Source: Cruoricaptor ignavus
GTDB lineage: Bacteria > Bacteroidota > Bacteroidia > Flavobacteriales > Weeksellaceae
DNA: 49,414 nucleotides
Reading direction: 5' to 3'
NCBI RefSeq assembly: GCF_900141665.1
Contig: NZ_FQYI01000012.1
Coordinates: 1 to 49,414 of the forward strand
A program made the translations under genes and the position numbers. This document shows positions 1,602 to 47,785 of this stretch, one piece after another. A model generated the notes under the pieces. It did not search any database and was not told the DNA's origin. It saw only the letters and a list, made by a program, of their open reading frames with translations. Each line of letters begins with the position of its first letter. Positions within the stretch are counted from its first letter, which is position 1.

Positions 1602-1859
1602 TTAAATTATATCGTCATTCAACTTCACTTCGATTTCCAGCACATCAAAAATCCTAACCAGCAAATCCCAGTTCAAACTGAATTTCCCCATCTCGAACCG
1701 CTGAATGGTTGACCAGCTCATTTCCGTGGCATTTGCAACTTCCTGCTGTGTCAACCCCTTCTCTTCCCTGATTTTTCTTACTGTTTCAGCTAATTTAGTC
1801 CGTTTTTTCAGTACCTCCTCGGTTACCGCCATTTCATAATTTTCCGCAAAAATATCCAT
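1602..1859 (-). CDS. XRE-family helix-turn-helix regulator
   Basis: This 85-residue DNA-binding protein has a classic XRE/Cro HTH at about residues 28-65 (GLTQQEVANATEMSWSTIQ is the helix-turn-helix). Such short proteins are either transcriptional regulators or antitoxins of the HigA type. No toxin-like partner is next to it: the upstream gene, 2 bp away, is a tyrosine recombinase. It is the last gene of the accessory operon, so it may regulate that operon, perhaps through the palindrome at 9473-9492. That link is inference. Confidence 0.8.
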   Translation of the reverse strand: MDIFAENYEMAVTEEVLKKRTKLAETVRKIREEKGLTQQEVANATEMSWSTIQRFEMGKFSLNWDLLVRIFDVLEIEVKLNDDII

Positions 1860-1861
1860 TT

Positions 1862-2854
1862 TTATAATTCTCGTGAAAAAAAGTTGTGATTTGATATATC
1901 AATTGCGCTTTCCAGCTTGCCAATTCTAATGTAGCTCATAAAAGCCCCCTCGGTCTTATGCCCGGTAATCTTCATAATGCTCGGCCTATCTATTTTCGCC
2001 AGTTCCGCCAAGCTTGCAAATGTTCTCCGCGCCGTGTGGCTGCTTATTTTTGAATATTTCGGCACCGTTTCTTCAACGAATTCTCCTCCCTTCGTATAGT
2101 ACAGTCTAACCGTATCAGTCAATCCGCACTCAAATCCAATCTTTTTAAGATAATAATTATAATGCTGGTAGCTGAACTTCCTGCCAAAATCGTAGTTGTG
2201 CTTTTCCAAAATCTTCTTAATCATCGTATGCATCGGCACCACCGCTTCAATCTTCGTCTTTTGGGAAAAATAATGGATGAACTGCATTTCCTCAACCTCA
2301 ATTATGAACTTCTTGGGATTTCTAATGAATGCCAGAAAATCAGAAATTCTCATTCCGCAAAAGCAATGCATAATGAATATGTCACGAATTCGGCTCATGG
2401 CCTCACTATCAAACTCGTAGTTATAAAGCGTCTGCAAATCCTTCCAGCTCAAATAAATTTGCACGGACTCCTCCCTGATCTGTCGAATTCCAAAACCAGT
2501 CCGCATCGTCAAACCTGCGAGATGAGCACGATTAACAATGCTCTTCAACTTCGCAATGTTGGTGGAAATCGTATTCTTCCGAAATTCAAGCTCGGAAGTA
2601 AGGAAGTTCCTGTACAGTTCCGCCCAATGTGGCGATATTTCGTCAATGTAGACGGTGCCATACTTTTCTTCATATTTCTCAATCGTCATCAGGAAGGTTT
2701 TGTAGGTGCGAATGCTTCCGCCGCTGTAAATATTTCCGTCCGGCGTAAGGATTTCGCCGTTTTCTGCCGCCCTCAAAAACTGCCGCACCACCGCAACGAA
2801 TTTAATTCTTACATTGCGAACAGGTAGGTTTCCAGATTTCATCACCTCGTTCAT
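1862..2854 (-). CDS. Second tyrosine recombinase
   Basis: A tyrosine recombinase of about 330 residues, distinct from the integrase. The N-terminal SAM-like domain lies at about 20-130 and the catalytic domain follows, with canonical boxes: Arg in GMRISDF, SHTARR (His-x-x-Arg), GHKT and Tyr in FMSYIR. The ATG at 2854 overlaps the stop of the upstream ParB-like gene as ATGA, so I prefer it to the ATG at 2863. Its place at the end of the PP-loop/helicase operon, away from attP, argues against a role in phage integration. Possible jobs are resolving dimers, inverting a segment, or mobilising the accessory cassette. Its target site is not visible. Confidence 0.85.
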   Translation of the reverse strand: MNEVMKSGNLPVRNVRIKFVAVVRQFLRAAENGEILTPDGNIYSGGSIRTYKTFLMTIEKYEEKYGTVYIDEISPHWAELYRNFLTSELEFRKNTISTNIAKLKSIVNRAHLAGLTMRTGFGIRQIREESVQIYLSWKDLQTLYNYEFDSEAMSRIRDIFIMHCFCGMRISDFLAFIRNPKKFIIEVEEMQFIHYFSQKTKIEAVVPMHTMIKKILEKHNYDFGRKFSYQHYNYYLKKIGFECGLTDTVRLYYTKGGEFVEETVPKYSKISSHTARRTFASLAELAKIDRPSIMKITGHKTEGAFMSYIRIGKLESAIDISNHNFFSREL

Positions 2855-3432
2855 ATCTCCCACGATTTTGAAAATTCCCTGTCAATATATACATCCGCAA
2901 TCTTCCGCAACCGCTTCAACCTTAGGAATTCATCCGCATCAATTCCCAAAGTCTTGCAGATGACTATTTCCTCAACGCCTTCATTCAACATCCTTTGCAC
3001 CAGCTCGGCGTTACCCTCAATTCTATGAACGCCTCGTGCCTTGTTGAACTGCATAGTCGCCGCCAATCGCTTGTCCATCGAATGATTCAATACTATCAGC
3101 GGCTTGTAATTGAGCTTCAGCCACTTCTCTCCGGTAATCTGGTTGCGGTGGTCTCCATCCACGATGACGAACTTCCTCTTCTCATAATCAAATATGGAAA
3201 TTATCCCGAAGCAGAAACCGTTTTCCTCGATTGAAATCTTCAACAGCTTCATCTTGTCTTTCGCAACATAATTCGGGTTATAGTCGTTCGCCTCCACCAG
3301 CGACTTATGCACCATTTTTGGATAAAGCACCGGAAAATCAATACCTTTTTCGTTGTAGATTTCCTGCTCCTGCAATTGTAGGAAGTCTTCTACCGTGTCG
3401 ATGAACGGCACCTTGATATCTATCGTTTTCAT
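2851..3432 (-). CDS. ParB/Srx-fold protein (IbrB-like)
   Basis: About 193 residues. A ParB N-terminal-type nucleotide-binding fold is suggested by DYNPN (about residues 50-54) and the box VDGDHRNQ (about 91-98), which takes the place of GERRxRA in ParB. A small helical region with an HTH-like helix follows. The ATG at 3432 overlaps the stop of the PP-loop gene as ATGA, so it is preferred to the ATG at 3447. ParB-like proteins beside a PAPS-reductase-like enzyme recall the IbrB/IbrA pair of E. coli prophages. ParB-fold domains are now known to bind or hydrolyse CTP or ATP. The actual role here is unknown. Confidence 0.7.
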   Translation of the reverse strand: MKTIDIKVPFIDTVEDFLQLQEQEIYNEKGIDFPVLYPKMVHKSLVEANDYNPNYVAKDKMKLLKISIEENGFCFGIISIFDYEKRKFVIVDGDHRNQITGEKWLKLNYKPLIVLNHSMDKRLAATMQFNKARGVHRIEGNAELVQRMLNEGVEEIVICKTLGIDADEFLRLKRLRKIADVYIDREFSKSWEI

Positions 3433-4559
3433 AAAATTTCCATCCATTTTTGCCTTCTTTTTTCCGCCGGGTCAACCTCGGCGTTGTCAATAGGCTTGTA
3501 ATTATTTATGTCTGTAATTAGAATTTGGTTGACCTGCTGCCTGAAAACATAGTTGTTCTCAAACTGCTTTGAAAATCTCTCGCGAAAAATGGTCGCGTGC
3601 TCCTGATTTGGAAGCGTGTCCAAAAGGTAATCGCGATATTCCTTCCAGCTCGAAAACCTTTCCGGAAGCGTGTTTGCCTTGTAAATTCCATCCCTACCCG
3701 CATATTCCTGCGCCGTTGCGGTGCCGGGAATCCTGTCAATCATTTTGTCAACTGTTTCCGGCTCGAATTCCTGCAAAAGCCTTATGCACTCGTATGATTT
3801 CGTGTGAATCAGATTTGCCAACCTCATCTTATTCGGATTCATCCCCTTCCAATAGAACAAGTCGTAAATCTTGTTGTATGGAAGTTGGAATTTGCCGAGA
3901 TAAGTCCACACATCAGAAAACCGCCAGTCGTAAATCGGATAAAAATTCACGCTGTTTTTCCTCTTCGTGCTCCACGGAATACCCGGAACGCCTTCATTCT
4001 TCGTTACGGCCCGAAACCTGTTCAAACTCTCGTCAGCTCTCAACCCGATAATCTGGGCCACGCTCTCCCTACCTGCGAACATTTCCTCCATACACTTAAT
4101 CAAGCTGACGAAACCATACATTTTGATTGAAGAATCGTTCATCTTGCTGGCTCCGACCTTGCTCACATCCCAATCGATAACCTTTTTGGAAATTTCGTTC
4201 TTCGGTCTTATCCAGATTTCCTCTTTCTCCGGGTTCCACGGGTCTAAGACATTCGTGCTGATGCTTGAAGGATTCGGCAGCTTGGCGTGAATCTGAAACC
4301 AAATCGGAATCACGAACTCATCCGCCATCATCTGCTCGATGAAGTCCACCGTATGCTTATACTCAACTTCTTGATCAAGGAAGAACAGGTAAAACATCTT
4401 GTTATGTTTCCGTGCCGCCTGCAGAGCCAGATGAGTAGTCACCGTGCTATCCTTTCCACCGGAAAGACTGACTACAATAGTTTCATAATTTTGAAATATG
4501 TAGTCCATCCGCTCGACTGCGGCTTGGTATACATTCTTATTGTTGTACTTCTTCACCAC
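3429..4559 (-). CDS. PAPS-reductase-like PP-loop enzyme (IbrA-like)
   Basis: 376 residues. The PP-loop ATP-pyrophosphatase signature SLSGGKDST lies at residues 31-39, and the fold matches the phosphoadenosine-phosphosulfate reductase superfamily. PP-loop enzymes adenylate a substrate; relatives include CysH, DndC (DNA phosphorothioation) and IbrA. The Cys-Gly motif at the C-terminus of true CysH reductases is absent, so sulfate assimilation is unlikely. The gene is flanked by an unknown 284-residue protein (23-bp overlap) and a ParB-like protein (ATGA overlap), so the products are probably made together. A nucleic-acid or nucleotide modification role is inference. Confidence 0.8.
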   Translation of the reverse strand: MVKKYNNKNVYQAAVERMDYIFQNYETIVVSLSGGKDSTVTTHLALQAARKHNKMFYLFFLDQEVEYKHTVDFIEQMMADEFVIPIWFQIHAKLPNPSSISTNVLDPWNPEKEEIWIRPKNEISKKVIDWDVSKVGASKMNDSSIKMYGFVSLIKCMEEMFAGRESVAQIIGLRADESLNRFRAVTKNEGVPGIPWSTKRKNSVNFYPIYDWRFSDVWTYLGKFQLPYNKIYDLFYWKGMNPNKMRLANLIHTKSYECIRLLQEFEPETVDKMIDRIPGTATAQEYAGRDGIYKANTLPERFSSWKEYRDYLLDTLPNQEHATIFRERFSKQFENNYVFRQQVNQILITDINNYKPIDNAEVDPAEKRRQKWMEIL

Positions 4560-5391
4560 TTCGCAAAATATTTATCAATTTGTTGTGCCGCAAAATCGCA
4601 TCTCTGGTGTTTTTCAACTGTAGTTCGTCCGCCCCGAAGATTCCAGAAGATAAGAACACGATTTTCCCGACCTTCTCCTTCTTCAGCACATCGTAAATCT
4701 TGAACTTCAACTTCGGCTGGTTGCTCGTAACCACATATGCATCGCCGTATTGATTTGAATTCGCTAAAAACGCTTCCTGCTTCGATTTCAGATTGTCCAC
4801 ATACTTAATGAGCTCGTGAACTACCTTCGAACGCGTCTGCTGTTGCTCAATTACCAGCTCACGCTTCAACTTCTCATACCCGGCGATTTCTTCGTCTGTA
4901 GGTTGATAGTTAATCGTCACGCACTCGATTTCATCCACTCTGCAATCGATAAACGGTCGAATATCCTCGGCATAATTTTCGACCGTGTTCTCCTCTCCGG
5001 CGTGAAAATTCAGCATCGAAGTTCCAAAAACGGAAGTGTCGATGAACAGGAACGGTCGCACAATATTCTTCTCATCGTAGCGAAACATAAAATCATCGAT
5101 GATTATAGTTTGCTTCGCCAGTTCCGTGAATCTAAAAATCTTACCATATGGATGCACATAAATTCCGTTCTTAACCAGCACATCCACGAGGAATAGCGTG
5201 GTGTTGGAATCGCACAGCATTATTTTTTCCAGAAAATATTCGTCCTGCATAAGCCTTTTCATATCGATTACCTCATCGAAACCTTCCAGCAATGGTGACT
5301 CCGAGTGGTAAATCGCTATTTTTTTTCCTTCAATACCGCTGATGAACGCAGCTCTCTCGTCGAAATCTCTGCTGACTAAAAATTTTTTCAT
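4537..5391 (-). CDS. Unknown protein of the PP-loop/helicase operon
   Basis: 284 residues; I do not recognise a family. The N-terminal half looks alpha/beta (alternating hydrophobic strands such as KIAIYHSE and TLFLVDVLV), and about 160-215 is a charged helical stretch, possibly coiled coil. The C-terminal part (GKIVFLSSGIFGADEL) looks like another alpha/beta unit. No signal peptide or membrane helix is visible. It overlaps the helicase gene by 4 bp (ATGA) and the PP-loop gene by 23 bp, so it is an integral member of the set. It is the most informative gene for finding relatives of this cluster because it lacks a common domain. Confidence 0.75.
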   Translation of the reverse strand: MKKFLVSRDFDERAAFISGIEGKKIAIYHSESPLLEGFDEVIDMKRLMQDEYFLEKIMLCDSNTTLFLVDVLVKNGIYVHPYGKIFRFTELAKQTIIIDDFMFRYDEKNIVRPFLFIDTSVFGTSMLNFHAGEENTVENYAEDIRPFIDCRVDEIECVTINYQPTDEEIAGYEKLKRELVIEQQQTRSKVVHELIKYVDNLKSKQEAFLANSNQYGDAYVVTSNQPKLKFKIYDVLKKEKVGKIVFLSSGIFGADELQLKNTRDAILRHNKLINILRSGEEVQQ

Positions 5392-7028
5392 AAATGTTTT
5401 TTGATGTAATTCTTAAGTTCTGTTTTATCTTTCAACATCGTTTTAATCTCTTCTGAAAGGTTTCCCTTCCTTGCCAAATTATTGGCTATCCGATGCTCGA
5501 TTCCGCATTCCGTCCTGAAGTCGTAGATGTCCATTTCACGCGTTTGCCCCTTGCGGTCAATCCGCCCGATGCACTGCTTCCGCTCATTGTATTTAAATGA
5601 ATTGCTCCAGAAAATGATGCGGTTGCAATGTTGAAGTCCGTTCAGTCCTGTGCCTCCGGAACTCATCGTCGCCACGAAGAACTGCTTCTCACGGTTCGTG
5701 AAAGCCTCCTTCTCTTCATTCCTATTGTTCCTGTTGTTTCCCGTGAACACGGCACAGTTTTCCGGCCCGAGAAACTCAACCAACCTTTCCAGCTCGTAGA
5801 TATACTTGCAGAAAATTATCGTCTGACCATTCCGATAATCAGCCTTTTCCAGCAAGCTGTATTTAAAAGTGTTCAGATTAGTAATGCCTTCGTCGGTAGC
5901 TTTGAAACCGCAGGAAGCCTGTTGCATCTTCGTGAAGTAGAGGAAAATAAGCGCCGCCGGCACAGGCATATCTTTATCGAACTTGTCCATTTTTTCCAGC
6001 AGCTCTTCCTTCAGCCGGAAATATTCTTCGGATTGCTCCGGTGTCATACCACATCTGAACTCGTGGAAATTTTTCCCCGGCAAATCCATCACATCTTCTT
6101 TCCTAACTTGGTAGGTGTATGGCTCCACGAGGCCCATCAGGTAATCCACATTCTTATAACCGATAATGTCTCCACGGTCATCGCAGATGAGGTACTTCTC
6201 CTCGAAGCTTAGCCAGTTGCGCTCCCCGATAATCAAATCTGAAAGTAAGCCGTACTGCATAAACATATCCTTTATGCTCTCCGCCGGCGTTCCAGTCATA
6301 ATTAGTTTGTACGAAGCTTTATCACAAACTTCCTTTATTCTTCGGGAACGCTTCGCTGTCGGCGTTTTGCAGTTGTGGCTCTCGTCAATGATGATTTGCG
6401 TTTGGTTGTCCACGAATTTCATCACTTCCAGAACGGTTCGGTCGCTTGAGCTCATTGATTCAAGTCCTACGATTTTCCATTCCAGAGTGGTGTTTTTCGC
6501 CCATTTGTCGATTTCTTCGCGGAAGTTTTTCTTCGTGGAAACAGGGCAAAAAATCAAAACCTTGTTGATTTGACCAGCTTCGAAACGGCTAATTGCCAAG
6601 TCCACCGCAACCTTTGATTTTCCCGTACCGGTGTCGGCGAACAATGCCGATACTTTCATAGAACAGCAGAAGCGCAGGGCTTGCGCCTGATGAAGCATAC
6701 TGCCTTCGTGAACTGGTGTCACATCGTCTTTCAATCGCTCGTGCAGCGGAATTTTGCGGCGTTCCTTCTCGCACTTGTTGATGACTTCGTGGAACTGTCG
6801 ATAAATGGAATCTACGATTTCGTTCGCCTTGCTTTCCTCCCAATTGGGATGCTGGGCGGGGCAGTAGACTTTCACGAACGGCTTGATTTTGTCGTTTACG
6901 ATTTCAAACCAGCAGCTGTATTTGGTTTGACCGTAGTTGCGTTTGTACGAGAAGTAAAGGCGATTTCCGCCTTTACTTTCGTATATTTTAGATCCTTTTA
7001 TGCGGCGTTGAAGTGCTTCCAGATCCAT
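5388..7028 (-). CDS. SNF2-family (SF2) helicase/ATPase
   Basis: 546 residues with a complete helicase core: Walker A FADTGTGKS, DEAH-box variant IIDESHNC, motif III LIMTGTPAES, and the C-terminal motifs SSGGTGLNG and QCIGRIDRKGQ typical of SNF2 proteins. These ATPases translocate on double-stranded DNA and remodel bound complexes. The start overlaps the stop of the upstream gene by one base. A separate HARP-like protein is encoded upstream at 7580-8167; in the phage's other SNF2 helicase (42039-43694) a similar domain is fused to the N-terminus. In this operon the helicase probably works with the ParB-like and PP-loop proteins. Confidence 0.88.
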   Translation of the reverse strand: MDLEALQRRIKGSKIYESKGGNRLYFSYKRNYGQTKYSCWFEIVNDKIKPFVKVYCPAQHPNWEESKANEIVDSIYRQFHEVINKCEKERRKIPLHERLKDDVTPVHEGSMLHQAQALRFCCSMKVSALFADTGTGKSKVAVDLAISRFEAGQINKVLIFCPVSTKKNFREEIDKWAKNTTLEWKIVGLESMSSSDRTVLEVMKFVDNQTQIIIDESHNCKTPTAKRSRRIKEVCDKASYKLIMTGTPAESIKDMFMQYGLLSDLIIGERNWLSFEEKYLICDDRGDIIGYKNVDYLMGLVEPYTYQVRKEDVMDLPGKNFHEFRCGMTPEQSEEYFRLKEELLEKMDKFDKDMPVPAALIFLYFTKMQQASCGFKATDEGITNLNTFKYSLLEKADYRNGQTIIFCKYIYELERLVEFLGPENCAVFTGNNRNNRNEEKEAFTNREKQFFVATMSSGGTGLNGLQHCNRIIFWSNSFKYNERKQCIGRIDRKGQTREMDIYDFRTECGIEHRIANNLARKGNLSEEIKTMLKDKTELKNYIKKHL

Positions 7029-7567
7029 TACTTTATTTTGATATCCACATTGAAGAAATCAAACCAGCGTTTCTCAATTTCCCGCTGGATGTCTTCCCAA
7101 GTTTCCATCTTCCTGGGGTAAGCGGAAGCTCCCGGTGCGAAGAAAGAAATCATATTGAAATCCACCACCAGCTCATCTGTATACATGTGGCTAAACTGGG
7201 TGCCTGATGTGGTTCCGATGGCGATTTTCCTCGACTTTACAAGGTCTCTAATGGCAGGTAATAGGAATGGTGAACCGCTCGACCATATAATTTCTTCTAC
7301 CTCTTCCTTTCCGCCGAAAATCTTCGGCTTGAACTCATCTAAGTGGTGGATTTCCCAGAAAATCTTCTGGAACGATCTTGGATGCGGGTCGTAGTCTACT
7401 ATCCAGAATTTTTTACCTTCAGAAAGGTATTTAAACTGTAAAACATTCATCCCTCCCTCATCACCGTATCCGGAAATGGTATGGGACAATTTCCAGTCGT
7501 GGTTTGGATTTGGGGTGCCTCCTTGGTACCCCGTGCTAATTGTAAGTTTTTTAATATCGATTGACAT
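7028..7567 (-). CDS. Unknown protein upstream of the SNF2 helicase
   Basis: 179 residues, family not recognised. It is rich in aromatic residues and glycine, soluble-looking, with no signal peptide. The stop codon overlaps the helicase ATG (TAATG), a sign of translational coupling. It starts 12 bp after the HARP-like gene. Confidence 0.7.
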   Translation of the reverse strand: MSIDIKKLTISTGYQGGTPNPNHDWKLSHTISGYGDEGGMNVLQFKYLSEGKKFWIVDYDPHPRSFQKIFWEIHHLDEFKPKIFGGKEEVEEIIWSSGSPFLLPAIRDLVKSRKIAIGTTSGTQFSHMYTDELVVDFNMISFFAPGASAYPRKMETWEDIQREIEKRWFDFFNVDIKIK

Positions 7568-7579
7568 TTTTTTAAGTAT

Positions 7580-8167
7580 TTAAAGGTTTTCTAATTCTGT
7601 TTTTAATTGTGCTAAAATATCTTCTTGCTTTTTAATTTCTGCTTCGATGTCTTCCCTCCGGCGTTTCTTTTTCGGCATTTTGATTTCGCACCAGCCTTCG
7701 GCGATGGCTTCCTGCACATCGTCAAAGCGAGTGCGAGCAACAGGAAAATTCTGAATCTCGAAGTGTCCGTTTTCTATCCGGGTATTCCAGTTCTTTACAG
7801 AACCGCCAGATTGATATGTACCGGAAATCCAGATTATATTGTCGCCGAGCTTGGCTCCGGAATCCCTTCCCCAAGCCTTGGCGATTGTTCTGCCGAACAG
7901 CTCAACAGCTGCACGATCGCCTACGGCACGGAATTTTTTTATTAGAAGTGAGCAGGTTTCCACCGGCTCTTCACCGGTAGTGCCGTATATTTCCATAAGC
8001 GCCGCCTTTACATAATCTTCGATGCTGTCGTCGAAAACCCATTCTTCGGTTTTCTTATCCCAAGACCCACGAAGGTTGCGGGCCTTGGTTACGAACTCCC
8101 TGTTGAAAGGTGTTTTTACACGTATTTGGTAGTTTTCTTTGTCGTGTGTGAAATTGAAGTCTGACAT
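7580..8167 (-). CDS. HARP-like domain protein
   Basis: 195 residues. The N-terminal 50 residues (strand, PFNREFVTKARNL, then SWDKKTEEWVF) match the small HARP-like module that precedes SNF2 helicase cores in SMARCAL1-type proteins and their phage relatives, where it helps bind branched DNA. A middle region of unknown fold follows. The C-terminus (about 158-195) is a lysine-rich segment plus coiled coil. It lies two genes upstream of the SNF2 helicase and may supply its DNA-binding module in trans. Confidence 0.6.
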   Translation of the reverse strand: MSDFNFTHDKENYQIRVKTPFNREFVTKARNLRGSWDKKTEEWVFDDSIEDYVKAALMEIYGTTGEEPVETCSLLIKKFRAVGDRAAVELFGRTIAKAWGRDSGAKLGDNIIWISGTYQSGGSVKNWNTRIENGHFEIQNFPVARTRFDDVQEAIAEGWCEIKMPKKKRRREDIEAEIKKQEDILAQLKTELENL

Positions 8168-8208
8168 GATTTCTGATGCCGAATTGCTGTTGCCGCCAGA
8201 TTTAGATT

Positions 8209-8463
8209 TTAAATATTTATTTCTTTTACCCAGTTTTTAATTTCAAATTGTAGGTTTTCCACATCCTGATTTTTCTGCACGAAAAGGTAATCCGGATGGT
8301 CAGAGAACATTACCACAAGGTCAAAGTCTCCCCATACATCCACGACATCTGCAGCTTCTGTCAGTTTGCAATACTCATCGAATGTTAATACATTCATCAA
8401 AGCGATATTGCCAATCGCAGTCTCTTTTTTAAGTCCTTTAAGGATTATTTCTTTCGTTATCAT
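8209..8463 (-). CDS. Small unknown acidic protein
   Basis: 84 residues, acidic, no recognisable domain, no membrane segment. It lies 2 bp from the stop of the upstream gene and about 40 bp before the HARP-like gene, in the same leftward unit. Confidence 0.6.
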   Translation of the reverse strand: MITKEIILKGLKKETAIGNIALMNVLTFDEYCKLTEAADVVDVWGDFDLVVMFSDHPDYLFVQKNQDVENLQFEIKNWVKEINI

Positions 8464-8465
8464 TT

Positions 8466-8681
8466 TTATTTTCTTTTGTAATATTTTTCAATAAAATTTT
8501 CTGCACATTCTTCTGGATTATCTCCATCGATTCCGGAAAGAAATACAAACCCGGGAAGGAATGCTATCCACTTTGTTTCTCCCGGCATAGCATCGGCTAA
8601 TACGACATAGCCAATTATTTCATCATTATCATTTCTCCTAATTTGCTGTCTTTGATAATCGTAATCAGATAAGTAATACAT
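8466..8681 (-). CDS. Small unknown protein
   Basis: 71 residues, rich in Tyr and Asp, not recognised. Part of the leftward accessory unit, 41 bp after the preceding gene. Confidence 0.6.
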   Translation of the reverse strand: MYYLSDYDYQRQQIRRNDNDEIIGYVVLADAMPGETKWIAFLPGFVFLSGIDGDNPEECAENFIEKYYKRK

Positions 8682-8722
8682 AGTTTATAAATTTTGATTT
8701 TAATTTTGAAAAATTGGCTGCC

Positions 8723-9412
8723 TTACGCAGCAGCCTTAGCGTTTTTTCTTGTGTATGGTTTTCTTTTTAATTCTTGGTAGCTGTTGTATTTCCGAATTTC
8801 TCTCGTGCTACCATCGTTCAGCAAAATCTGGAAACTGTTTCCTGTTTTGCTTTCCCATACCAGCCGCCCGACTAAATCTTCGGTCCCGGCAAACTTTACA
8901 TTTCTTCCGGATCCACTCCACACATTTACATTTACTGAAACCCAGATTTTTTTGTTCTTAATTCTCAACGCGCGGTTTCTTTCCCATCTGCGCTGTTCTA
9001 AGTTTCTAACAATCTCCTTGATTTTCTCTTGGCGTGCAGTAAGCTTTTCCTTTCTGTTTTCTTCCCGGAAATCCACTTTTTTCCGGAAGGCCGTGAAGTC
9101 TTTTTTGAACGATTTTAAGATTGTGTATTTCCCAGTTTCAGCCGAGTATACACCAACGCTCCAGCAATCATCTTCCACATTGTTGGAAGTTTCGCAGTGC
9201 ATTTCGCCACGGCTAAAGAAATTCCAGTGGTCTGAAATCCTGTAAGAGCCGTCCGGTTTGTGGCCCCAAGAAATGTTAGTTGCTGAGTAAAATGAATCGG
9301 AATAAGGCGATTTTGAAGCGATTTCAACGCCTTCGATAAGTTCCTTAATTTGGCTGATTGTTAATGCCTGATTAAGTGCGCGGTACAGTGCCGCTTTAGC
9401 TGAATTTTTCAT
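8723..9412 (-). CDS. Unknown protein, first gene of the accessory operon
   Basis: 229 residues from the ATG at 9412. The frame stays open to 9499, but that longer start would lie upstream of the promoter at 9468-9499, so the shorter form is preferred. The middle (about 95-155) is a highly charged helical region rich in Arg and Lys. The C-terminal 60 residues look beta-rich (IWVSVNVNVW, QILLNDGSTREI), and the end is basic. Family not recognised. Its operator-controlled promoter suggests that the whole operon down to the terminator at 1491 is regulated. Confidence 0.7.
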   Translation of the reverse strand: MKNSAKAALYRALNQALTISQIKELIEGVEIASKSPYSDSFYSATNISWGHKPDGSYRISDHWNFFSRGEMHCETSNNVEDDCWSVGVYSAETGKYTILKSFKKDFTAFRKKVDFREENRKEKLTARQEKIKEIVRNLEQRRWERNRALRIKNKKIWVSVNVNVWSGSGRNVKFAGTEDLVGRLVWESKTGNSFQILLNDGSTREIRKYNSYQELKRKPYTRKNAKAAA

Positions 9413-9467
9413 AATGTTTAACGCCGTGTTTATAGTGTTGCCGACACTTTTAGTATTAATTACACTG

Positions 9468-9499
9468 CAAATATATAGCGTAAACGCTATATGAAGCAA
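9468..9499 (-). promoter_or_regulatory. Promoter with palindromic operator for the accessory operon
   Basis: Read on the minus strand: TTG (9497-9499), a 21-base spacer, then TATATTTG (9468-9475), a match to the Bacteroidetes TAnnTTTG -7 element. Within the spacer and overlapping the -7 element is a perfect 9-bp inverted repeat, ATATAGCGT-AA-ACGCTATAT, at 9473-9492. A protein bound there would block RNA polymerase. Confidence 0.7.
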
Positions 9500-33201: not shown

Positions 33202-33452
33202 TATGTCTCATTCGGGTACATCCTCTTGATTACCTCGATGTGTCTTTTAAGTTCGTAAATTCTGTCACGAAGCTTGATGGCTTCGCGCTCCCTCATCTCG
33301 CGAATTGTCTCGGAAACATCAGCAATCGGTGATTCGTATGCCACCAAGGCATCTTCGTTTATGCTCTTCTCGCTCTCGAGATATTTAACTATCTGGTCTC
33401 TCATCTCAATCAGCGCTTGGTAGTTTGATTCGTTCATTTTCAAAATCTTCAA
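33201..33452 (-). CDS. Small coiled-coil protein
   Basis: 83 residues, almost entirely helical, heptad-like spacing at about 45-80. It overlaps the methyltransferase end by 47 bp and the terminase small subunit by one base. Unknown function; an assembly or packaging cofactor is possible. Confidence 0.55.
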   Translation of the reverse strand: MKILKMNESNYQALIEMRDQIVKYLESEKSINEDALVAYESPIADVSETIREMREREAIKLRDRIYELKRHIEVIKRMYPNET

Positions 33453-34875
33453 ATGTTAAATTGCCGTTTAAGTGGCTAAAATTAACATTTATCCCTCGCT
33501 TCTCGCAGTAGTTTAAATACCGCAATATGCATCCCTGCACATAAACCGGCTCAACTTCGGTAAATCTTCCAAGTCTCTGGGTGTGCTCACAGGCGATTAA
33601 CGCCGTTCCCGAACCAAGGAACCAGTCAATCACTATGTCTCCGGGATTGGTCGTGTCCAAAATCGCATCGGCAATCATCACCACCGGCTTCGGCGTTGGA
33701 TGGTTCTTCAATTCAAACCTATCGGGATTCGCTCTTGAAATGGCACTCGGATATTTCCAGACATTGGTTCTTATGCGGTCTTGCAGTTCGAGGTGTGAAA
33801 GGTGCTTCGCTGAATCCCCGTTCTTGAAGATGTAGCACCACTCGCTGTTGTCTTTGTAAAATTCTCCGCCGTTATCCAGCAAATCCTTGTTCCACAGCGC
33901 CTTCGCTCTCTCGTCTGAAAATATGAAGCATAACTCGTGCTGTGCTCGATAGAAAGAACCGTTCGCCATTAGGTCTTTCGCCCAAACGCAAACCTGCTTC
34001 GGCTGAGGATTGCCGTAAACCCTTCTCGCTGCTTCAGTCATATGCCAAGCGTGTCTGAAATCCATGAAGATGTAGTGAATCGCTCCGGGCACCGAATTTT
34101 CCACCGATGCCTTCATTATGCTGGCTAGGAATTCCGCAAACTCCTCATCATTCATCTCTCCCGAACCTTCGGCAAAATCCTTGTGCCGCTTGGTCGTCGT
34201 GTTCGTGAAGAAATCCGCAGGTAGATTATATGGCGGATCGCAATTCACAATCCGCGCCAGATCACCGCCCATAAGCTGTGCAACGGCTTCGGAATTTTTG
34301 AAGGAATCACACAGGATGCGGTGCCCGTTGATTTCGAAAAGGTCGCCAGCTTTAACGATGCAGTCCTTGTCCAAAACATAGACTTCCTCTTCCTCGGCAC
34401 TCTCAACATCGAACAAGTCAAACTTCTGTTCAAATCTCGGCATCGAAAATTCTGGAATTGATATCCGTTCACCGATGCTCGGAATGTCCAGATTGAATTT
34501 CTCCACGAAATCAAACAATCCCTGCTGGGTAATCTTTGCGTACGCTGATGAGTAAACCAATACCAACTCCGCCGCTTCTTCAACGCAGGCGCAGTCGATG
34601 AATGTTGCTGGCAATTCTTCTGGCACTTCGTGACCGAGCTGAACCAAGCGTTCCAAATCCAGCGTTCTGTGCTTCCCATCCAAGCAGTAGATTTTTCCTT
34701 CGTGCTCCCAAACCTTGAACGGATCAACGAACTGATACTGCAAAATGGAATTGATGAGCTTCTCGTCGCCATCGTCAATCCATTCCTTGAAATTCTCATC
34801 TTGGATGAATTCCAGTTCACGCCAGCGGATGTTCTCGGTCTTGAGAATTCGGCTTCTGATTTCTTGAGTCTGCAT
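33406..34875 (-). CDS. ParB-like domain fused to beta-class DNA methyltransferase
   Basis: 489 residues. Residues 15-130 are a ParB N-terminal-type domain with LDGKHRTLD (65-73). Residues 165-470 are a DNA amino-methyltransferase: motif IV DPPY (213-216) comes before motif I FLGSGT (419-424), the beta order, with PTPKP (393-397) as motif X. It methylates adenine N6 or cytosine N4, probably to protect phage DNA or mark it for packaging. First gene of the late operon, with a 15-base leader from its promoter. ParB-methylase fusions are common in phages. Confidence 0.88.
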   Translation of the reverse strand: MQTQEIRSRILKTENIRWRELEFIQDENFKEWIDDGDEKLINSILQYQFVDPFKVWEHEGKIYCLDGKHRTLDLERLVQLGHEVPEELPATFIDCACVEEAAELVLVYSSAYAKITQQGLFDFVEKFNLDIPSIGERISIPEFSMPRFEQKFDLFDVESAEEEEVYVLDKDCIVKAGDLFEINGHRILCDSFKNSEAVAQLMGGDLARIVNCDPPYNLPADFFTNTTTKRHKDFAEGSGEMNDEEFAEFLASIMKASVENSVPGAIHYIFMDFRHAWHMTEAARRVYGNPQPKQVCVWAKDLMANGSFYRAQHELCFIFSDERAKALWNKDLLDNGGEFYKDNSEWCYIFKNGDSAKHLSHLELQDRIRTNVWKYPSAISRANPDRFELKNHPTPKPVVMIADAILDTTNPGDIVIDWFLGSGTALIACEHTQRLGRFTEVEPVYVQGCILRYLNYCEKRGINVNFSHLNGNLTFEDFENERIKLPSAD

Positions 34876-34895
34876 TTATAGGCATAATTTTGCAA

Positions 34896-34922
34896 CAAAA
34901 ATAGTAAACTATTAGTTTACAT
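34896..34922 (-). promoter_or_regulatory. Late operon promoter
   Basis: TATTTTTG (34896-34903, minus strand) matches TAnnTTTG. The position of a -33 box is occupied by the palindrome at 34904-34920 and an AT-rich stretch without a clear TTTG, as expected if an activator, or relief of a repressor, is needed. It lies about 20 bases before the methyltransferase ATG. Confidence 0.6.
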
Positions 34923-35053
34923 TAAAATTCCTATTACATAAGATTAGTAAACCATTCGTTTACTTTTGATGGGTTGGTAAACCATTCGTTTACTTTTGAT
35001 GGGTTGGTAAACTATTAGTTTACTTTTGATCTGTTGGTAAACTATTCGTTTAC
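34904..35053. repeat. Array of five palindromes GTAAACNATTNGTTTAC, four at exact 30-bp spacing
   Basis: Copies at 34904-34920, 34947-34963, 34977-34993, 35007-35023 and 35037-35053. Each has perfect GTAAAC/GTTTAC arms around a 5-base centre. The last four are 30 bp apart (close to three helical turns) and share the linker TTTTGATNNGTTG. This fills most of the only gene-free stretch longer than 300 bp (34876-35220). Probable multi-site operator for late transcription; a centromere-like or packaging site is the alternative. Plus-strand TACTTTTG elements within the units leave rightward promoters possible. Confidence 0.85.
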
Positions 35054-35148
35054 TTTCAAATCCCTTCATTGATATGGTCTTCTGCACACTCTTACAAAAA
35101 GTAATTGTGAAGTAATACTTACTCTTTACTTTTTCTGTTTTTTGGGAA

Positions 35149-35178
35149 CAAAAAATGCCACCCGTATTATCAGGTGGC
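35149..35178 (-). terminator. Terminator of the early operon
   Basis: GCCACC (35157-35162) pairs with GGTGGC (35173-35178); on the minus strand the hairpin is followed by ATTTTTTG. It separates early leftward transcription from the late promoter. Confidence 0.8.
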
Positions 35179-35220
35179 TGGTGTAATTAAAAAACTGAGG
35201 GAGCAATCCTCTACAATCCG

Positions 35221-35457
35221 TTATTGGTTTACGATTTCGATATGCCTAAGCCTTACAAGGTCTCGGATGAATTCCTGTTCGTTGGTGGCTCTGATATCTT
35301 CGTTGGTGAGTGCTACGGCACGCTGGGCGTAGCCTATCATATACTCGTGGTTGTCAGCTGCCATAGCGTGCGGTGCGTTAATTCGCATCTGCGTTACGAT
35401 GTCGCCATAATCTGCGGCGTCAATGATTTCACCGTTGCAAGTGAATCTTATTTTCAT
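35221..35457 (-). CDS. Small unknown protein
   Basis: 78 residues from the ATG at 35457. A longer frame to 35559 runs through the inverted repeat at 35463-35497 and the end of the amidoligase gene, so it is not used. Sequence is mixed alpha/beta (MKIRFTCNGEIIDAADYGD). Last gene of the early operon. Not recognised. Confidence 0.6.
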   Translation of the reverse strand: MKIRFTCNGEIIDAADYGDIVTQMRINAPHAMAADNHEYMIGYAQRAVALTNEDIRATNEQEFIRDLVRLRHIEIVNQ

Positions 35458-35462
35458 TGTGT

Positions 35463-35497
35463 AAAGATAGGGAAATCTTACCAATCTCCCTATCTTT
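35463..35497 (-). repeat. Perfect 11-bp inverted repeat between genes
   Basis: AAAGATAGGGA (35463-35473) and TCCCTATCTTT (35487-35497) are exact reverse complements around a 13-base loop, just upstream of the gene at 35457. No T run follows on the minus strand, so it is not an obvious terminator. It may sequester the translation start or stabilise the upstream mRNA. Confidence 0.6.
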
Positions 35498-35506
35498 CTG
35501 ATTAGT

Positions 35507-36424
35507 TTAGGCGCTGAGGTCGATAGCCCTGTCCGCCGTGTAGTCAAGTAAACTTTCATTTAAGAATGCATTAAAGTTATCGGTTTCACCGTTCTGCTTG
35601 GCGTAGTCCACCAATCGCATACAGATGAGAATCCAGTTTTTGATTTTCGAGTAAGTCGTCGTGCCTGAATGGTGGCGGAATTCCACCGTGCCATAACGAA
35701 GCACGCTTTGCAGATTCAGCTTGAAATACCTGCTGAGGAAAAGCCTCCTGATACCTTCAAAGCTGCCAGTGTTCTGAATCCTCCGCTTGATGTTGTCTCC
35801 CACCGATGAAAGATTCCTGCAGTACTGGTTGTTATTTCCTCTTCTGGACACAGGCTGAATTTTATCAAACTCGCCTTCAAGATTCACGAAGGATTTGCAC
35901 AGGCTCTTGAAGTTCTCCGGAAGGAAATCGTTTACACCGATGTGAAGGTGAAATCCGCAAGACTTATTCACCTTTGCTTTCGCCCTGTTGAGAGCTTGGC
36001 AAACCTTCTTGATTTGCTCCAGTCCGTCAGTTCCCCGAAGCACCGGCGATACGATTTCATTTCCGTTGCCACCCCGGATTGAAGAATCAGTAACGATCTT
36101 CCAGTGGTCTCTCGTAAGGTGGTTGTAACCTTCGAACTGAATGTTGATTCCCACCCTGTTCATCTCTCTGACGATGTCTTCCCTGCTGGCACCGTAAACT
36201 TCCAGCTCGATTCCGAATGTTCTCTCGAAGGTGAATTCGAACGGAAGGTTTACGATTTCCGGACCTCTCTGGCTCATCCATTTTTTCCAGATGTTATGGG
36301 CGAATCCATAATTCCCATTCGTGATGTAGTGTGCAACATCTCGTCTCGTGAATCCAAGCTCATACAGTTTGTAAGCTTTTTGAGTCTTGTTCAGATTGCT
36401 GTTTAGAATCTCTTGAAGCGTCAT
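35507..36424 (-). CDS. Amidoligase-family (COOH-NH2 ligase) enzyme
   Basis: 305 residues. Family landmarks are clear: FGIELE (70-75), DSSI (113-116), NEIVSP (122-127), CGFHLHIG (156-163) and VEFRHHSGT near the end. These enzymes share the glutamine synthetase/GCS fold and form amide or peptide bonds using ATP. They are predicted to modify peptidoglycan, tag proteins or make small peptides. The N-terminal 60 residues include an HTH-like helix pair. It is in the early operon with its own possible promoter at 36450-36480. Substrate unknown. Confidence 0.8.
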   Translation of the reverse strand: MTLQEILNSNLNKTQKAYKLYELGFTRRDVAHYITNGNYGFAHNIWKKWMSQRGPEIVNLPFEFTFERTFGIELEVYGASREDIVREMNRVGINIQFEGYNHLTRDHWKIVTDSSIRGGNGNEIVSPVLRGTDGLEQIKKVCQALNRAKAKVNKSCGFHLHIGVNDFLPENFKSLCKSFVNLEGEFDKIQPVSRRGNNNQYCRNLSSVGDNIKRRIQNTGSFEGIRRLFLSRYFKLNLQSVLRYGTVEFRHHSGTTTYSKIKNWILICMRLVDYAKQNGETDNFNAFLNESLLDYTADRAIDLSA

Positions 36425-41285: not shown

Positions 41286-42042
41286 TTTCCTCTTTCCTCC
41301 GTTGTTCCCAGGTCCTGACCGCCGCTTGCCAGTCCTTCATCTTGTTTTTTCCAATCACCCAGCCTTTACTCTGATAATGCGCGCAGAAAGCTTCGGCTGA
41401 TATCCCGTTGTTGCGTTCGTTACAATACGCTTGCACCTCAGCGACTTCGGGCACCACAAAAACCTTTTCTTTTTTTCGCGCAACTTTTTTTCTTTTGGAA
41501 ATTCCTTTTTGAGATTTACCAGATAAATCATCCTGAAGAATTTCAAAAAATTCGTCTTGCGATAAATCTCCCTCTTTTGGTTCTTTTTCTAAAAGAACAT
41601 TGTTTTGTTTTTGTTTATGTTTATAATAGTCGTTACATTGGGGTGCCTCTTTGGGTACCCGATTGGGTTCCCTTTGGGGTGCCCGATTGGCGTTAAAATT
41701 TCCCCCCAATCGTACCCCCTTTATGTTACTTTCATCCTCATTGGCGTTAAAATTTACCACCAAAGAGTAGGTACCAAATGCCCTTTTCGACTTCCCAGAA
41801 TGATATTTTATCAAACCAGCGTTGATTAAATTTTGCCTCCACGACCGCAAACTTTTTTCGGTACACTGTAGAGCGTTCATTAATTCCCCGTTGGAAACTT
41901 GAAAAGACTGACTCCAGAACTCCTCGTTACAGATGTCTACCAGCTCTTGGTAAAGCGCCTGCTCGGAAGCCGTAAGAGAAAATCTCCTCCTCGTTTTCTT
42001 CAAAATATTTCTGAAAAAGTAACCGCTTAACTCCATTCTCAA
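41188..42042 (-). CDS. Replication initiator / replisome organiser (DnaD-like)
   Basis: 284 residues. The N-terminal winged helix (about 20-95, with NALQCTEKSLRSWRQNLINA) is typical of phage replisome organisers. The middle (about 112-135) is a low-complexity stretch encoded by a 12-bp direct-repeat array. The C-terminus (PEVAEVQAYCNERNNG, then GWVIGKNKMKDWQAAVRTW) is the conserved end of this family. It would bind the iterons and recruit host DnaB. Initiators with origins inside their genes are known in lambdoid phages. Confidence 0.8.
   Translation of the reverse strand: MRMELSGYFFRNILKKTRRRFSLTASEQALYQELVDICNEEFWSQSFQVSNGELMNALQCTEKSLRSWRQNLINAGLIKYHSGKSKRAFGTYSLVVNFNANEDESNIKGVRLGGNFNANRAPQREPNRVPKEAPQCNDYYKHKQKQNNVLLEKEPKEGDLSQDEFFEILQDDLSGKSQKGISKRKKVARKKEKVFVVPEVAEVQAYCNERNNGISAEAFCAHYQSKGWVIGKNKMKDWQAAVRTWEQRRKEENEKRVTKNGGANGNKISGTSALANGAEYFEFT
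41590..41776. other. Candidate replication origin (iterons within the initiator gene)
   Basis: Five tandem 12-bp units cover 41636-41695: CATTGGGGTGCC, TCTTTGGGTACC, CGATTGGGTTCC, CTTTGGGGTGCC and CGATTGGCGTTA. ATTGGCGTTAAAATTT occurs at 41686-41701 and again at 41740-41755. An AT-rich stretch (41590-41635) lies next to them, as a DNA-unwinding element would. Confidence 0.6.
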
Positions 42043-43694
42043 CTATTAAACAAAGACATAACATTGTCCACGATGGACATTTCCATTTTATCCGTAGCAC
42101 CAGATATCGTGTTCGCAATGTGCCGCTTCGACTGAATCATCTGGTATAGCTGTTCATCAATCGTATCCTTCCCAAGGAAGTAGGTGCACATCACATTGTT
42201 TTTCTGACCGAAGCGGTGAGCCCTGTCCTCGCACTGCACGCAGTCTGCATAAGTCCACGGGAACTCGATGAACGCCACTCTGGAAGATGCGGTAAGCGTC
42301 AAACCGACACCTGCCGCTTTAATGTTTCCAATAAAGATCTTCGTGTTTGGATCCGCCTGAAACTTGTCAACCGCCGCCTGCTTCTCATCCATTGAAGATA
42401 GGCCCGTAACGCTCACCGCCTTCGGATACCTTTCCTTCAACGCGTCAACGATTTCGTGCAGGTTGCAGAACAGTATGATTTTTTCTCCGGCTTCCGTAAT
42501 ATCGTCCACGAAGTCAAAAACCGCATCCAGCTTTCCTCTTGCGGAAATCCTTTTCAGTTCTCCCATCTTCACCATAATCTCTCCCCGAAGCTTGCGCCTG
42601 ATTTCTTCGCTGTTGCATCCGTTATCACGCAGGAACCGAACGAAATCATTCTTCGCCTTCTCGTAGGTTTCCCGAGTCGAAATTTCACAGATAATCGTTT
42701 GCCGTTCCTTTTCTGGAAGGTCGTCAAGAACATCTTTCTTTTCCCTTCGGAAATAGCAGTGCTTGTTAAGCAGGTAATTCAGCTCCTTAAGATTGGATGC
42801 ACCTTTGCCACCTTCGCAGTATCGGTTAAGGAAACCTCGCCTTCCTCCGAAATCTTCCAGCCTGTTCATAATTGCGATTTGCGGAAAAAGGTCGGCTGGC
42901 TTATTCACCACCGGCGTTCCGGAAAGTAGAATGACATTCTCTTTGCCGTGTGCCATCCTAAGCGTAAGTTTGGATTGTTGCGTGGCGGTTGATTTGCACT
43001 TGTGGCTCTCGTCCACGATTACGGATTTGAAAAGTTCGATGCGCGAATCCATCTCAATATCTCCGGCGTTCTTCATTCGCTTGGGATAATTCTTCACGAA
43101 GAATTTCTTAAGGCTCTCGTAATTGACGATGAACACATCCGCCAATCCGAGCTGCCAGTAGTTCTGCCAGTTATCCTTCACCTTGTCGTTCAGAATCATC
43201 ACCTTTTTGTCGCTGAACTTTTTCCACTCGCGTTCCCAGTTCATCTTCAGCGATGCAGGCACGATGCACAGGCACGGAAAGGCACCGCCGTGCACCTTGT
43301 CGATTCCGATGATTGTGCCGATGGATTGAATTGTTTTACCGAGTCCCGGCTCGTCGCCGTTCAGCAATCTGCGCAGCTGAACACCTTTTGCGATTCCCTG
43401 CTTCTGGTAATGGCGAAGTTCCGCTTTGATAGGAATCTCAACCTCTAGTTCCGGCATCGGCTCTATGTTTCCGATTTGCTCCGGCTCTACATTTCCCACG
43501 ATGATGTATTCTGCTCGATATTTTTGCGCTATGCGCTCTACATCAGCTCGGTAGATTAACGGCACCTCCCAAACTTTCTTCTTGAAGTTCCACTGTCTTG
43601 TTGGCAACTTCTTCACATCTTCCAGCTTCCTGTCTTTTTGGTAATTGAAAGGAATTGAGATATGGAAGCTGTCTTTAAATTCCACTATTTGCAT
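42039..43694 (-). CDS. SNF2-family helicase with N-terminal HARP-like domain
   Basis: 551 residues. Residues 1-70 (SFHISIPFNYQKDRKLED, then TRQWNFKKKVWEVPL) are a HARP-like DNA-binding module. The core has Walker A DEPGLGKT, VDESHKC, LLSGTPVV, AAGVGLTLT and CEDRAHRFGQ. SMARCAL1-type enzymes anneal or remodel forked DNA. It lies in the replication module between the initiator and recombination genes, so it likely acts on replication forks. It is distinct from the helicase at 5388-7028. Confidence 0.9.
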   Translation of the reverse strand: MQIVEFKDSFHISIPFNYQKDRKLEDVKKLPTRQWNFKKKVWEVPLIYRADVERIAQKYRAEYIIVGNVEPEQIGNIEPMPELEVEIPIKAELRHYQKQGIAKGVQLRRLLNGDEPGLGKTIQSIGTIIGIDKVHGGAFPCLCIVPASLKMNWEREWKKFSDKKVMILNDKVKDNWQNYWQLGLADVFIVNYESLKKFFVKNYPKRMKNAGDIEMDSRIELFKSVIVDESHKCKSTATQQSKLTLRMAHGKENVILLSGTPVVNKPADLFPQIAIMNRLEDFGGRRGFLNRYCEGGKGASNLKELNYLLNKHCYFRREKKDVLDDLPEKERQTIICEISTRETYEKAKNDFVRFLRDNGCNSEEIRRKLRGEIMVKMGELKRISARGKLDAVFDFVDDITEAGEKIILFCNLHEIVDALKERYPKAVSVTGLSSMDEKQAAVDKFQADPNTKIFIGNIKAAGVGLTLTASSRVAFIEFPWTYADCVQCEDRAHRFGQKNNVMCTYFLGKDTIDEQLYQMIQSKRHIANTISGATDKMEMSIVDNVMSLFNS

Positions 43695-47677: not shown

Positions 47678-47711
47678 TTTGTTTACTTTTTGATTTATTT
47701 TTATATATTTG
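47678..47711 (+). promoter_or_regulatory. Repressor promoter
   Basis: TTTG (47678-47681), 22 bases, TATATTTG (47704-47711). The spacer contains GTTTACTTTTTGAT (47681-47694), close to the linker of the late palindrome array. It lies left of the leftward promoter at 47728, so the two face each other. Confidence 0.6.
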
Positions 47712-47727
47712 AAAGTAAAATATATCA

Positions 47728-47757
47728 CAAAGGTAAACAATTTTATAATTTTTTACC
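47728..47757 (-). promoter_or_regulatory. Leftward promoter opposing the repressor promoter
   Basis: TACCTTTG (47728-47735, minus strand) is identical to the -7 element of the early promoter. The -33 position shows only a partial match. TTTACC motifs at 47753-47758 and 47764-47769 flank it. Confidence 0.5.
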
Positions 47758-47785
47758 TAAACTTTTACCTAACAAGTTACTAACA

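Follow-up and report, generated by a model that had tools for sequence, protein, structure and literature searches.

Gene content of the operon

The window analysed here is a 49,414-base stretch of DNA from Cruoricaptor ignavus (contig NZ_FQYI01000012.1), and is the whole viral contig IMGVR_UViG_2700988704_000001. It is a prophage or phage contig, with an integrase (203-1444), tape measure, large terminase and Sak4-like genes, and a Peptidase_S24-domain protein (47690-48565) as repressor candidate. We describe an operon of this contig that encodes the protein pair IbrA/IbrB together with an SNF2-family ATPase and a protein of 284 amino acids (aa) that appears, from profile comparison and a predicted structure, to be a catalytically dead SNF2 paralogue. 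Eight consecutive, co-directional open reading frames (ORFs) run from 8167 to 1602:

7580..8167, minus strand: 195-aa protein, first of the coupled block (PHROG 18108, function unknown, E 3.4e-26)
7028..7567, minus strand: 179-aa orphan (family matches at chance level at most)
5388..7028, minus strand: SNF2-family ATPase, 546 aa (Pfam, PHROG 62, motifs intact)
4537..5391, minus strand: 284-aa putative pseudo-SNF2 (profile alignment, predicted fold, motif scan)
3429..4559, minus strand: IbrA, PP-loop (SGGKDS) plus DUF3440, 376 aa (PHROG 2302; Pfam PAPS_reduct and DUF3440)
2851..3447, minus strand: IbrB, ParB/Srx-type, 198 aa (PHROG 2159)
1862..2863, minus strand: tyrosine recombinase, 333 aa (PHROG 1, 5.6e-18), overlapping IbrB
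1602..1859, minus strand: Cro/CI-type helix-turn-helix (HTH) regulator, 85 aa, last gene of the operon (domain match)

The ORF coordinates place these genes in tight coupling. A 12-nucleotide (nt) gap separates the genes for the 195-aa and 179-aa proteins, and this is followed by a 1-nt overlap (TAATG) between the 179-aa and SNF2 genes, a 4-nt overlap (ATGA) between the SNF2 and 284-aa genes, overlaps of 23 nt between the 284-aa and IbrA genes, 19 nt between IbrA and IbrB and 13 nt between IbrB and the recombinase, and finally a 2-nt gap between the recombinase and HTH genes. The initial annotation, made from the sequence alone, had proposed a co-directional coupled operon, and this is borne out by the coordinates, the junction sequences and the recurrence of the gene order in Bergeyella zoohelcum (see below). 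It had also placed the operon outside the structural and replication modules. That is correct for the prophage of the window, but in some relatives the module adjoins terminase genes. As family assignments, the SNF2, PP-loop/DUF3440, ParB-like, recombinase and HTH proteins are firm.

The IbrA/IbrB pair

IbrA was identified by matches to PHROG 2302 (7e-87) and to the Pfam domains PAPS_reduct and DUF3440, and IbrB by a match to PHROG 2159 (2e-33). An alignment of 11 IbrB sequences contains the motifs DGxHR and N-(R/K)-A-(R/K)-G-x-H. The comparison with IbrA/IbrB in the initial annotation was right, as both families and the overlap of the two ORFs indicate. Phage IbrA/IbrB pairs and YbdN/YbdM of Escherichia coli belong to the same two families and are adjacent, on the same strand and often overlapping. 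Unlike the plain pair, the operon described here adds the SNF2 protein, its apparently dead partner, a recombinase and an HTH gene.

Of 50,697 phage records, 215 contain IbrA and 153 contain IbrB; Flavobacterium phages account for 90 of each. Loci on viral contigs were the best 80 of at least 315 matches for IbrA and the best 80 of at least 563 for IbrB, and so were not sampled at random; nine annotated phages were added to them. Clustering of IbrA at 90% identity gave 133 clusters, and in 131 of these the IbrB gene begins no more than 3 kb away from IbrA and shares its strand. For the cysteine count and the tree, IbrA proteins of 330-480 aa were kept (155 of 159) and copies of at least 90% identity removed, leaving 129 representatives.

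Among these representatives, the PP-loop residues are 90-99% conserved, the motif GxRxxESxxR 95-100%, and the DW residues are nearly invariant. No conserved cysteine was found: the best cysteine column reaches 58%, and two of the proteins contain no cysteine at all. The 3'-phosphoadenosine-5'-phosphosulfate (PAPS) reductase CysH has a C-terminal catalytic cysteine. Against curated models of the CysH type, IbrA scores 31-42 bits (cut-offs 154-254), and this, with the cysteine pattern, sets the PP-loop protein apart from assimilatory CysH. A match to a known assimilatory enzyme had been named beforehand as a result that would refute the initial annotation. In DndC, sulfur is carried on a cysteine dyad (PMC10853773). 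Because IbrA has no conserved cysteine, sulfur chemistry of the DndC or CysH type appears unlikely. IbrA often carries a sulfate-assimilation name in phage records, and one paper takes the phage gene as that of a true PAPS reductase (PMC10434257).

The SNF2 ATPase and its linkage to IbrA

The 546-aa protein matches SNF2-rel_dom in Pfam (3.9e-14) and the helicase family PHROG 62 (1e-89). Its catalytic motifs are intact, with Walker A at residue 134, DESH at 215 and motif VI at 489. It also has an N-terminal extension of about 110 aa, missing from the five relatives in the alignment.

The linkage of SNF2 to IbrA is partial. An SNF2 gene lies near IbrA in 41 of the 133 clusters (40 of the 115 that have more than 1.6 kb of upstream sequence); in every case it shares the strand of IbrA and begins upstream of it. 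In 24 of the 41 the end of SNF2 is no more than 60 nt from the start of IbrA; the remaining loci have IbrB, a 284/290-aa protein or some other gap between the two. Both orders, SNF2-IbrA-IbrB and SNF2-IbrB-IbrA, were found; Streptococcus thermophilus phage CHPC877 has the former. When the 17 of the 129 loci with too little upstream sequence are left out, SNF2 is present in 38 of 112 representatives, and its distribution implies 11 changes on the IbrA tree (shuffled mean 32). The gene has been gained or lost repeatedly and inherited in between.

A reverse search with the SNF2 protein of FCV-1 returned 114 of the 50,697 phage records at E<=1e-20: 90 from Flavobacterium, 18 from Streptococcus, three from Lactobacillus, two from Listeria and one from Fusobacterium. 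Of the 114, 60 were listed individually. The counts of the first three genera are near those of IbrA (Flavobacterium 90, Streptococcus 21, Lactobacillus 3), compared as genus totals and not as pairs within records.

The window encodes a second SNF2-type helicase (42039-43694, minus strand; PHROG 62, 9e-102), near a Sak4-like annealing protein (45111-46070). Small proteins are encoded just upstream of SNF2 in several loci (L037, 3837-4160; L051, 5849-6169 and 6501-6836; L122, 4578-4898; L173, 4819-5109). Their families differ in the N-terminal part but resemble one another at the C-terminal end, with a tail of the form H-x-P-E-K ... I-x-E/D-L-K. For two of the families the likeness of the tail is seen by hhalign (probability 92.7, last 28 columns), and for a third by eye; the tail is possibly a docking peptide for SNF2 or IbrA. 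Also upstream of SNF2, in 12 of 12 loci, is a family of 218-432 aa (L133, 326-1480, and 11 relatives), the longer members of which have a cysteine-containing N-terminus.

A putative catalytically dead SNF2 paralogue

Searched as a lone sequence, the 284-aa protein matched families at chance level at most, had no relative among the phage records and matched neither genome contigs nor an SNF2 profile. Its assignment needed relatives from three loci. The profile of this three-sequence family aligns with that of 47 SNF2 proteins over 134 columns (hhalign probability 95.4, P 2e-8). None of 60 column shuffles came near (maximum score 27 versus 66), and the reversed profile scored 15.

A first AlphaFold2 model (two alignment rows, predicted local distance difference test score, pLDDT, of 60) gave no Foldseek match at E<=1e-3. 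With the three-sequence alignment the pLDDT is 74 and the predicted template modelling score 0.67, residues 73-81 and 102-135 being unreliable. Foldseek of this model returned nine chains at E<=1e-3, seven from Snf2-family entries and two from vaccinia RNA polymerase entries, with Chd1 the best (E 1e-5). VIA-align, run on Foldseek's own list, aligned 263 of the 284 residues with SRCAP (Z 12.4). Simple patterns for Walker A, DExx and motif VI detect 44, 33 and 47 of the 47 SNF2 proteins, respectively; the same scan finds none of the three motifs in any of the three members of the 284-aa family. The profile alignment and the model thus describe a degenerate, apparently catalytically dead SNF2 paralogue with the two RecA-like lobes of the Snf2 type. 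The fold of the model and the sequence family of the 546-aa protein are those of the Snf2 remodellers (Chd1, SRCAP, CSB), but the 284-aa protein is without the three ATPase motifs, and the phage proteins are short.

The 284-aa protein occurs in two of 149 related genomes (its own counted), in one of 395 genomes of the order, which is its own, in none of the 50,697 phage records, and in three viral contigs (its own counted; these came from pattern scans, by which distant relatives can be missed). In nine other loci the gene of a second family, of about 290 aa, directly precedes IbrA, and the motif scan again finds no Walker A, DExx or motif VI in any of the nine. The 12 IbrA proteins that accompany a 284-aa (three) or 290-aa (nine) protein form one clade of the 129, with a Shimodaira-Hasegawa-like approximate likelihood ratio test value of 92. 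The 290-aa proteins may be a second family of dead SNF2 paralogues, but this assignment, made from sequence, is much less certain.

The two proteins left unrecognised in the initial annotation thus part company: the one of 284 aa is now recognised, as a probable dead SNF2, and the one of 179 aa is still without a family after profile scans.

Recurrence of the block

The order SNF2-284-IbrA-IbrB-recombinase-HTH was also found in a prophage region of Bergeyella zoohelcum, a member of the same family group as the window genome. Identities between the two regions are 26% for SNF2, 36% for the 284-aa protein, 63% for IbrA, 64% for IbrB, 28% for the recombinase and 45% for the HTH protein. Beyond these six, blastp of the window ORFs against a 19.9-kb Bergeyella stretch gave a weak match to part of the tape measure (4e-5), a match of the window's second SNF2 (42039-43694) to the SNF2 encoded there (2e-8), and matches of two overlapping ORFs that lie within the IbrA region. 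The six-gene order is kept between two phage regions that have little else in common. Viral contig L122 encodes SNF2, a 276-aa relative of the 284-aa protein, IbrA and IbrB, in that order, near products that read like terminase and portal proteins. Recurrence of the block had been set beforehand as a test of the initial annotation, and it is seen for six genes in B. zoohelcum and for the first four of these in L122.

Enzymes encoded beside IbrA and IbrB

A gap of at least 200 base pairs (bp) separates IbrA and IbrB in 32 of 128 loci. In eight of these gaps we identified a gene for an ectoine-synthase-like protein (one tested member matches PF06339, 6.5e-42). Other inserts are GNAT proteins, above the Pfam cut-off in L082 and L136 and below the curated cut-off in L106 and L111, and a methyltransferase in L043. 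The GNAT-like inserts of L074 and L059 and the inserts of L039, L042 and L065 have no Pfam match. N6/N4 DNA methylase genes are also found as neighbours in relatives of the module.

Near IbrA, the 129 representatives include 15 with the ectoine-synthase-like protein and 23 with a GNAT protein, never both. The GNAT linkage is partial. In these 23 the GNAT gene lies within 1.2 kb of IbrA, and its occurrence is dispersed across the tree (18 changes; 21.5 on average after shuffling). Of the GNAT matches in the loci, 23 are within 2.4 kb of IbrA and one is elsewhere (p 3e-8, a value that is biased because the profile was built from IbrA neighbours).

The linkage of the ectoine-synthase-like protein is strong. 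The best 80 of 137 viral matches and three phage loci gave 83 loci (58 clusters at 90% identity). In 82 of the 83, IbrA, IbrB or both are encoded on the same strand no more than 400 bp away or are fused to the protein; both are present in 68, and the protein is fused to IbrB in 12. The gene is present in five of the 50,697 phage records (mycobacteriophage Gaia twice). Four are annotated beside a PAPS reductase or ParB gene; the fifth is unannotated, and the pair is not nearby. In Gaia, whose host is Mycobacterium smegmatis mc2 155, gp104 is annotated as an 'ectoine synthase/ParB multidomain protein'. The 'helicase' gp102 beside IbrA in Gaia does not match the SNF2 or 284-aa profiles, and nothing in the window matches the ectoine-synthase-like or GNAT profiles.

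In 19 loci, a family of about 140 aa with no Pfam match (L072, 7570-7992, and 18 relatives) is encoded at most four genes away from IbrA.

Proposed function and alternatives

The initial annotation considered DNA or nucleotide modification plausible, and this role fits the new evidence best. We see a roughly even chance that the operon encodes an ATP-driven, sulfur-independent module that targets DNA, most likely to modify it, and that here includes an active SNF2 and an apparently dead one. Other PP-loop enzymes, such as TilS, QueC and GuaA, use adenylation for attack by a nitrogen or oxygen nucleophile. By analogy, IbrA would adenylate a group on a base or its precursor, to which a nitrogen or oxygen nucleophile, rather than sulfur, would then be joined. 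IbrB, with its ParB/Srx fold, may be the DNA- or nucleotide-handling partner of IbrA. The SNF2 ATPase could be the motor that carries the complex along double-stranded DNA; its non-hydrolysing partner could be the 284-aa protein, acting as DNA clamp, adaptor or regulator. In some relatives, the ectoine-synthase-like, GNAT and methyltransferase enzymes may tailor the added group. The module probably serves to protect phage DNA or to regulate the prophage.

There is precedent in CmoX/CmoY, an adenylate-forming, ParBc-associated system of phage DNA hypermodification (PMC12783734). More specifically, and more tentatively, IbrA/IbrB may be the core of an undescribed sulfur-independent hypermodification pathway in which a nitrogen side group is placed on a base, with delivery by SNF2 and its dead partner and lineage-specific tailoring. 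The cysteine pattern, the linkage or fusion to the ectoine-synthase-like protein and the SNF2/dead-SNF2 pair together predict a DNA adduct that depends on the PP-loop of IbrA. If this is true, the label 'PAPS reductase' in many phage records is wrong, and the new base mark bears on restriction evasion and on host detection of phage DNA.

Several observations weigh against this proposal. SNF2 is an accessory gene, as 69 of the 112 representatives have neither SNF2 nor a 284/290-aa protein, and of the nine loci with a 290-aa protein four have an SNF2 match and five have none. The similarity of the 290-aa family to SNF2 is weak (probability 45, P 2e-4), as is its similarity to the 284-aa family (probability 5, P 0.007), although in both comparisons none of 60 shuffles reached the score. 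The ectoine-synthase-like gene accounts for a single change on the IbrA tree, and in one locus, on the unannotated metagenome scaffold L201, it has neither IbrA nor IbrB nearby. Its linkage to the pair, though strong, is not unbiased, because the query was built from IbrA/IbrB loci and the matches include some contigs that had been sampled before. Sulfur may be delivered by a protein other than IbrA. In the parts of the literature examined, we found no modified base reported for phages that carry the module and no demonstrated activity of IbrA/IbrB. Serratia phage eta encodes a ParB homologue, and no modified base was detected in it by high-performance liquid chromatography (PMC3918226). Of its 42.7 kb, the 20 kb viewed include the ParB region and carry no annotated PAPS reductase; phage eta is therefore no test of the modification.

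The names IbrA and IbrB themselves stem from a regulatory phenotype in E. coli, the activation of eib-type prophage genes. The proteins have been called 'co activators of prophage gene expression' (PMC4490671), a further point against modification, and one Streptococcus and one Faecalibacterium phage carry the annotation 'co-activator of prophage gene expression IbrA/IbrB'. The module could accordingly remodel or bind DNA through IbrA/IbrB and SNF2 and switch prophage genes with no covalent mark. An HTH gene ends the operon in both the window and Bergeyella, and in E. coli K-12 the pair ybdNM adjoins the LysR regulator that controls it (PMC9068703). However, the conserved PP-loop and the linkage to ectoine-synthase-like, GNAT and methyltransferase enzymes point to catalysis on small groups, and phage FCL-2 has the pair although neither an integrase nor a repressor was seen in this phage (PMC4541368). 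We regard a purely regulatory module as rather unlikely.

Phosphorothioation, or another DNA sulfur modification akin to Dnd/Ssp, is considerably less probable still. IbrA would stand for DndC or SspD, IbrB would be DndB-like or a nickase, and SNF2 would replace DndD or SspC. A PAPS-reductase-type PP-loop enzyme, an ATPase and a ParB-like or other DNA-recognising partner do make up the core layout of phosphorothioation systems (PMC12707154), and a DndC-like role has been proposed for the PAPS-reductase-like protein of Mycobacterium abscessus prophages (PMC8092301). In PADLOC, IbrA has partial matches to DndC, BrxP and SspD; the DndC and BrxP profiles are matched by nine of nine IbrA proteins scanned, over part of the length in the window IbrA. 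But the ATPase here is SNF2, rather than ABC (DndD) or Orc/Cdc6 (SspC), and the cysteine dyad of DndC is without counterpart in IbrA. No DndE or SspB was recognised in the operon, and among the PADLOC matches listed for 10 operon-side proteins (25 of 30 families in the case of SNF2) there is no DndD, DndE, SspB or SspC; the listed SNF2 families include one PbeA match at 1e-6. The Dnd-type sulfur reading raised in the initial annotation is weakened by the missing dyad.

Comparably improbable is that the module is defence cargo, by which the prophage protects its host against other phages. Such cargo might be expected of an operon with its own regulator and recombinase in a prophage, and the SNF2 protein matches helicases of DISARM, BREX, Zorya and Dpd in PADLOC. 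These matches are to shared helicase domains, however. The same 10 proteins yielded no full BREX, DISARM, Dpd or Zorya gene set, only matches at the level of helicase, PP-loop enzyme and HTH protein and two weak ones, so that defence, also entertained in the initial annotation, is unsupported. No nuclease or other effector was recognised in the operon, and the relatives are carried by ordinary phages, in the midst of genes for packaging, lysis or replication.

In the ectoine pathway, derivatives of diaminobutyrate are the substrates of ectoine synthase and of its GNAT partner. The least probable of the readings considered, slightly below the preceding two, draws on this: the enzymes would act on the nucleotide pool or on metabolites (e.g., in amino-acid or polyamine chemistry) and not on DNA, and the ParB/Srx protein, like SbnI, would phosphorylate small molecules. 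IbrB does match SbnI weakly (5uje_A, E 0.0037), but it matches ParB/Noc chains better, and both the SNF2 and apparent dead-SNF2 genes of the operon and the N6/N4 DNA methylase neighbours favour DNA.

Comparison with other ParB-associated systems

The DpdE protein of the Dpd 7-deazaguanine system is SNF2-like. The matches of our SNF2 protein to DpdE are the sole Dpd matches among those listed, which sets the operon apart from Dpd. A shared trait is the ParB-like DpdB, which accompanies the modifying enzyme (PMC12839542). CmoX/CmoY resembles the operon in that an adenylate-forming ligase and ParBc proteins occur together in phage DNA-modification loci; its features include CmoA, CmoX (SPPC plus Arg) and an AMP-forming ligase (PMC12783734), enzyme families that differ, compared by description, from those found here.

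The apparent dead SNF2, the recurring SNF2-IbrA-IbrB module and the linkage to ectoine-synthase-like and GNAT proteins are new; the phage IbrA/IbrB pair was known. In the parts of the literature examined, neither SNF2-IbrA-IbrB as a unit nor IbrB with an ectoine synthase is described. A 2013 work by Iyer et al. may discuss ParB/PAPS-reductase pairs, and DNA modification may thus have been predicted earlier.

Remaining genes and signals of the operon

The label 'HARP-like' for the 195-aa protein is unsupported. The protein has no HARP match in Pfam at E<=0.1, no relative of solved structure in the Protein Data Bank and no profile support for this identity; PHROG 18108 and two further weak PHROG matches are all of unknown function. 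It shows no hhalign similarity to a 384-aa family that lies upstream of SNF2 in relatives. PHROGs, NCBIfam and PADLOC place the 179-aa protein in none of their families, and its one Pfam match is at chance level; it is its own sole homologue among the viral contigs and among the 149 related genomes.

Two candidate regulatory signals were identified:

1515-1496, minus strand: terminator-like hairpin 3' of the HTH gene (hairpin scan)
9475-9468 (box) and 9475-9490 (palindrome), minus strand: TATATTTG box and 16-bp palindrome, candidate promoter/operator of ORF 8723-9499

The initial annotation had credited the operon with its own terminator and an operator-controlled promoter. The hairpin agrees with the former, although it is weak evidence because the scan found 19 terminator-like sites in the window, where shuffles gave 10.3. 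The palindrome is perfect, occurs once in the window and overlaps or abuts the minus-strand promoter-like box. The promoter claim is weaker because this site is at the start of a separate ORF, 8723-9499, which has a terminator-like hairpin (8735-8716) behind it. A scan for sigma-70-type promoters found 24 sites (23.0 expected), which is no evidence for or against a promoter.

Neighbouring loci of interest

IbrA/IbrB genes are often beside packaging genes. Clusters of 14 and 8 genes lie three to four genes downstream of IbrA; the representative L064 10242-11417 is a large terminase, and a second terminase family was found among the 40 representatives scanned.

Elsewhere in the window, 33406-34875 (minus strand) encodes a protein that combines a ParB-like part with an N6/N4 DNA methylase part (PHROG 498, 3.7e-64; Pfam, 1.7e-24). 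Near it is an Amidoligase_2 gene (35507-36424, minus strand; 5.3e-43). The genes of 33406-36424 are a candidate second DNA-modification locus in the same prophage.

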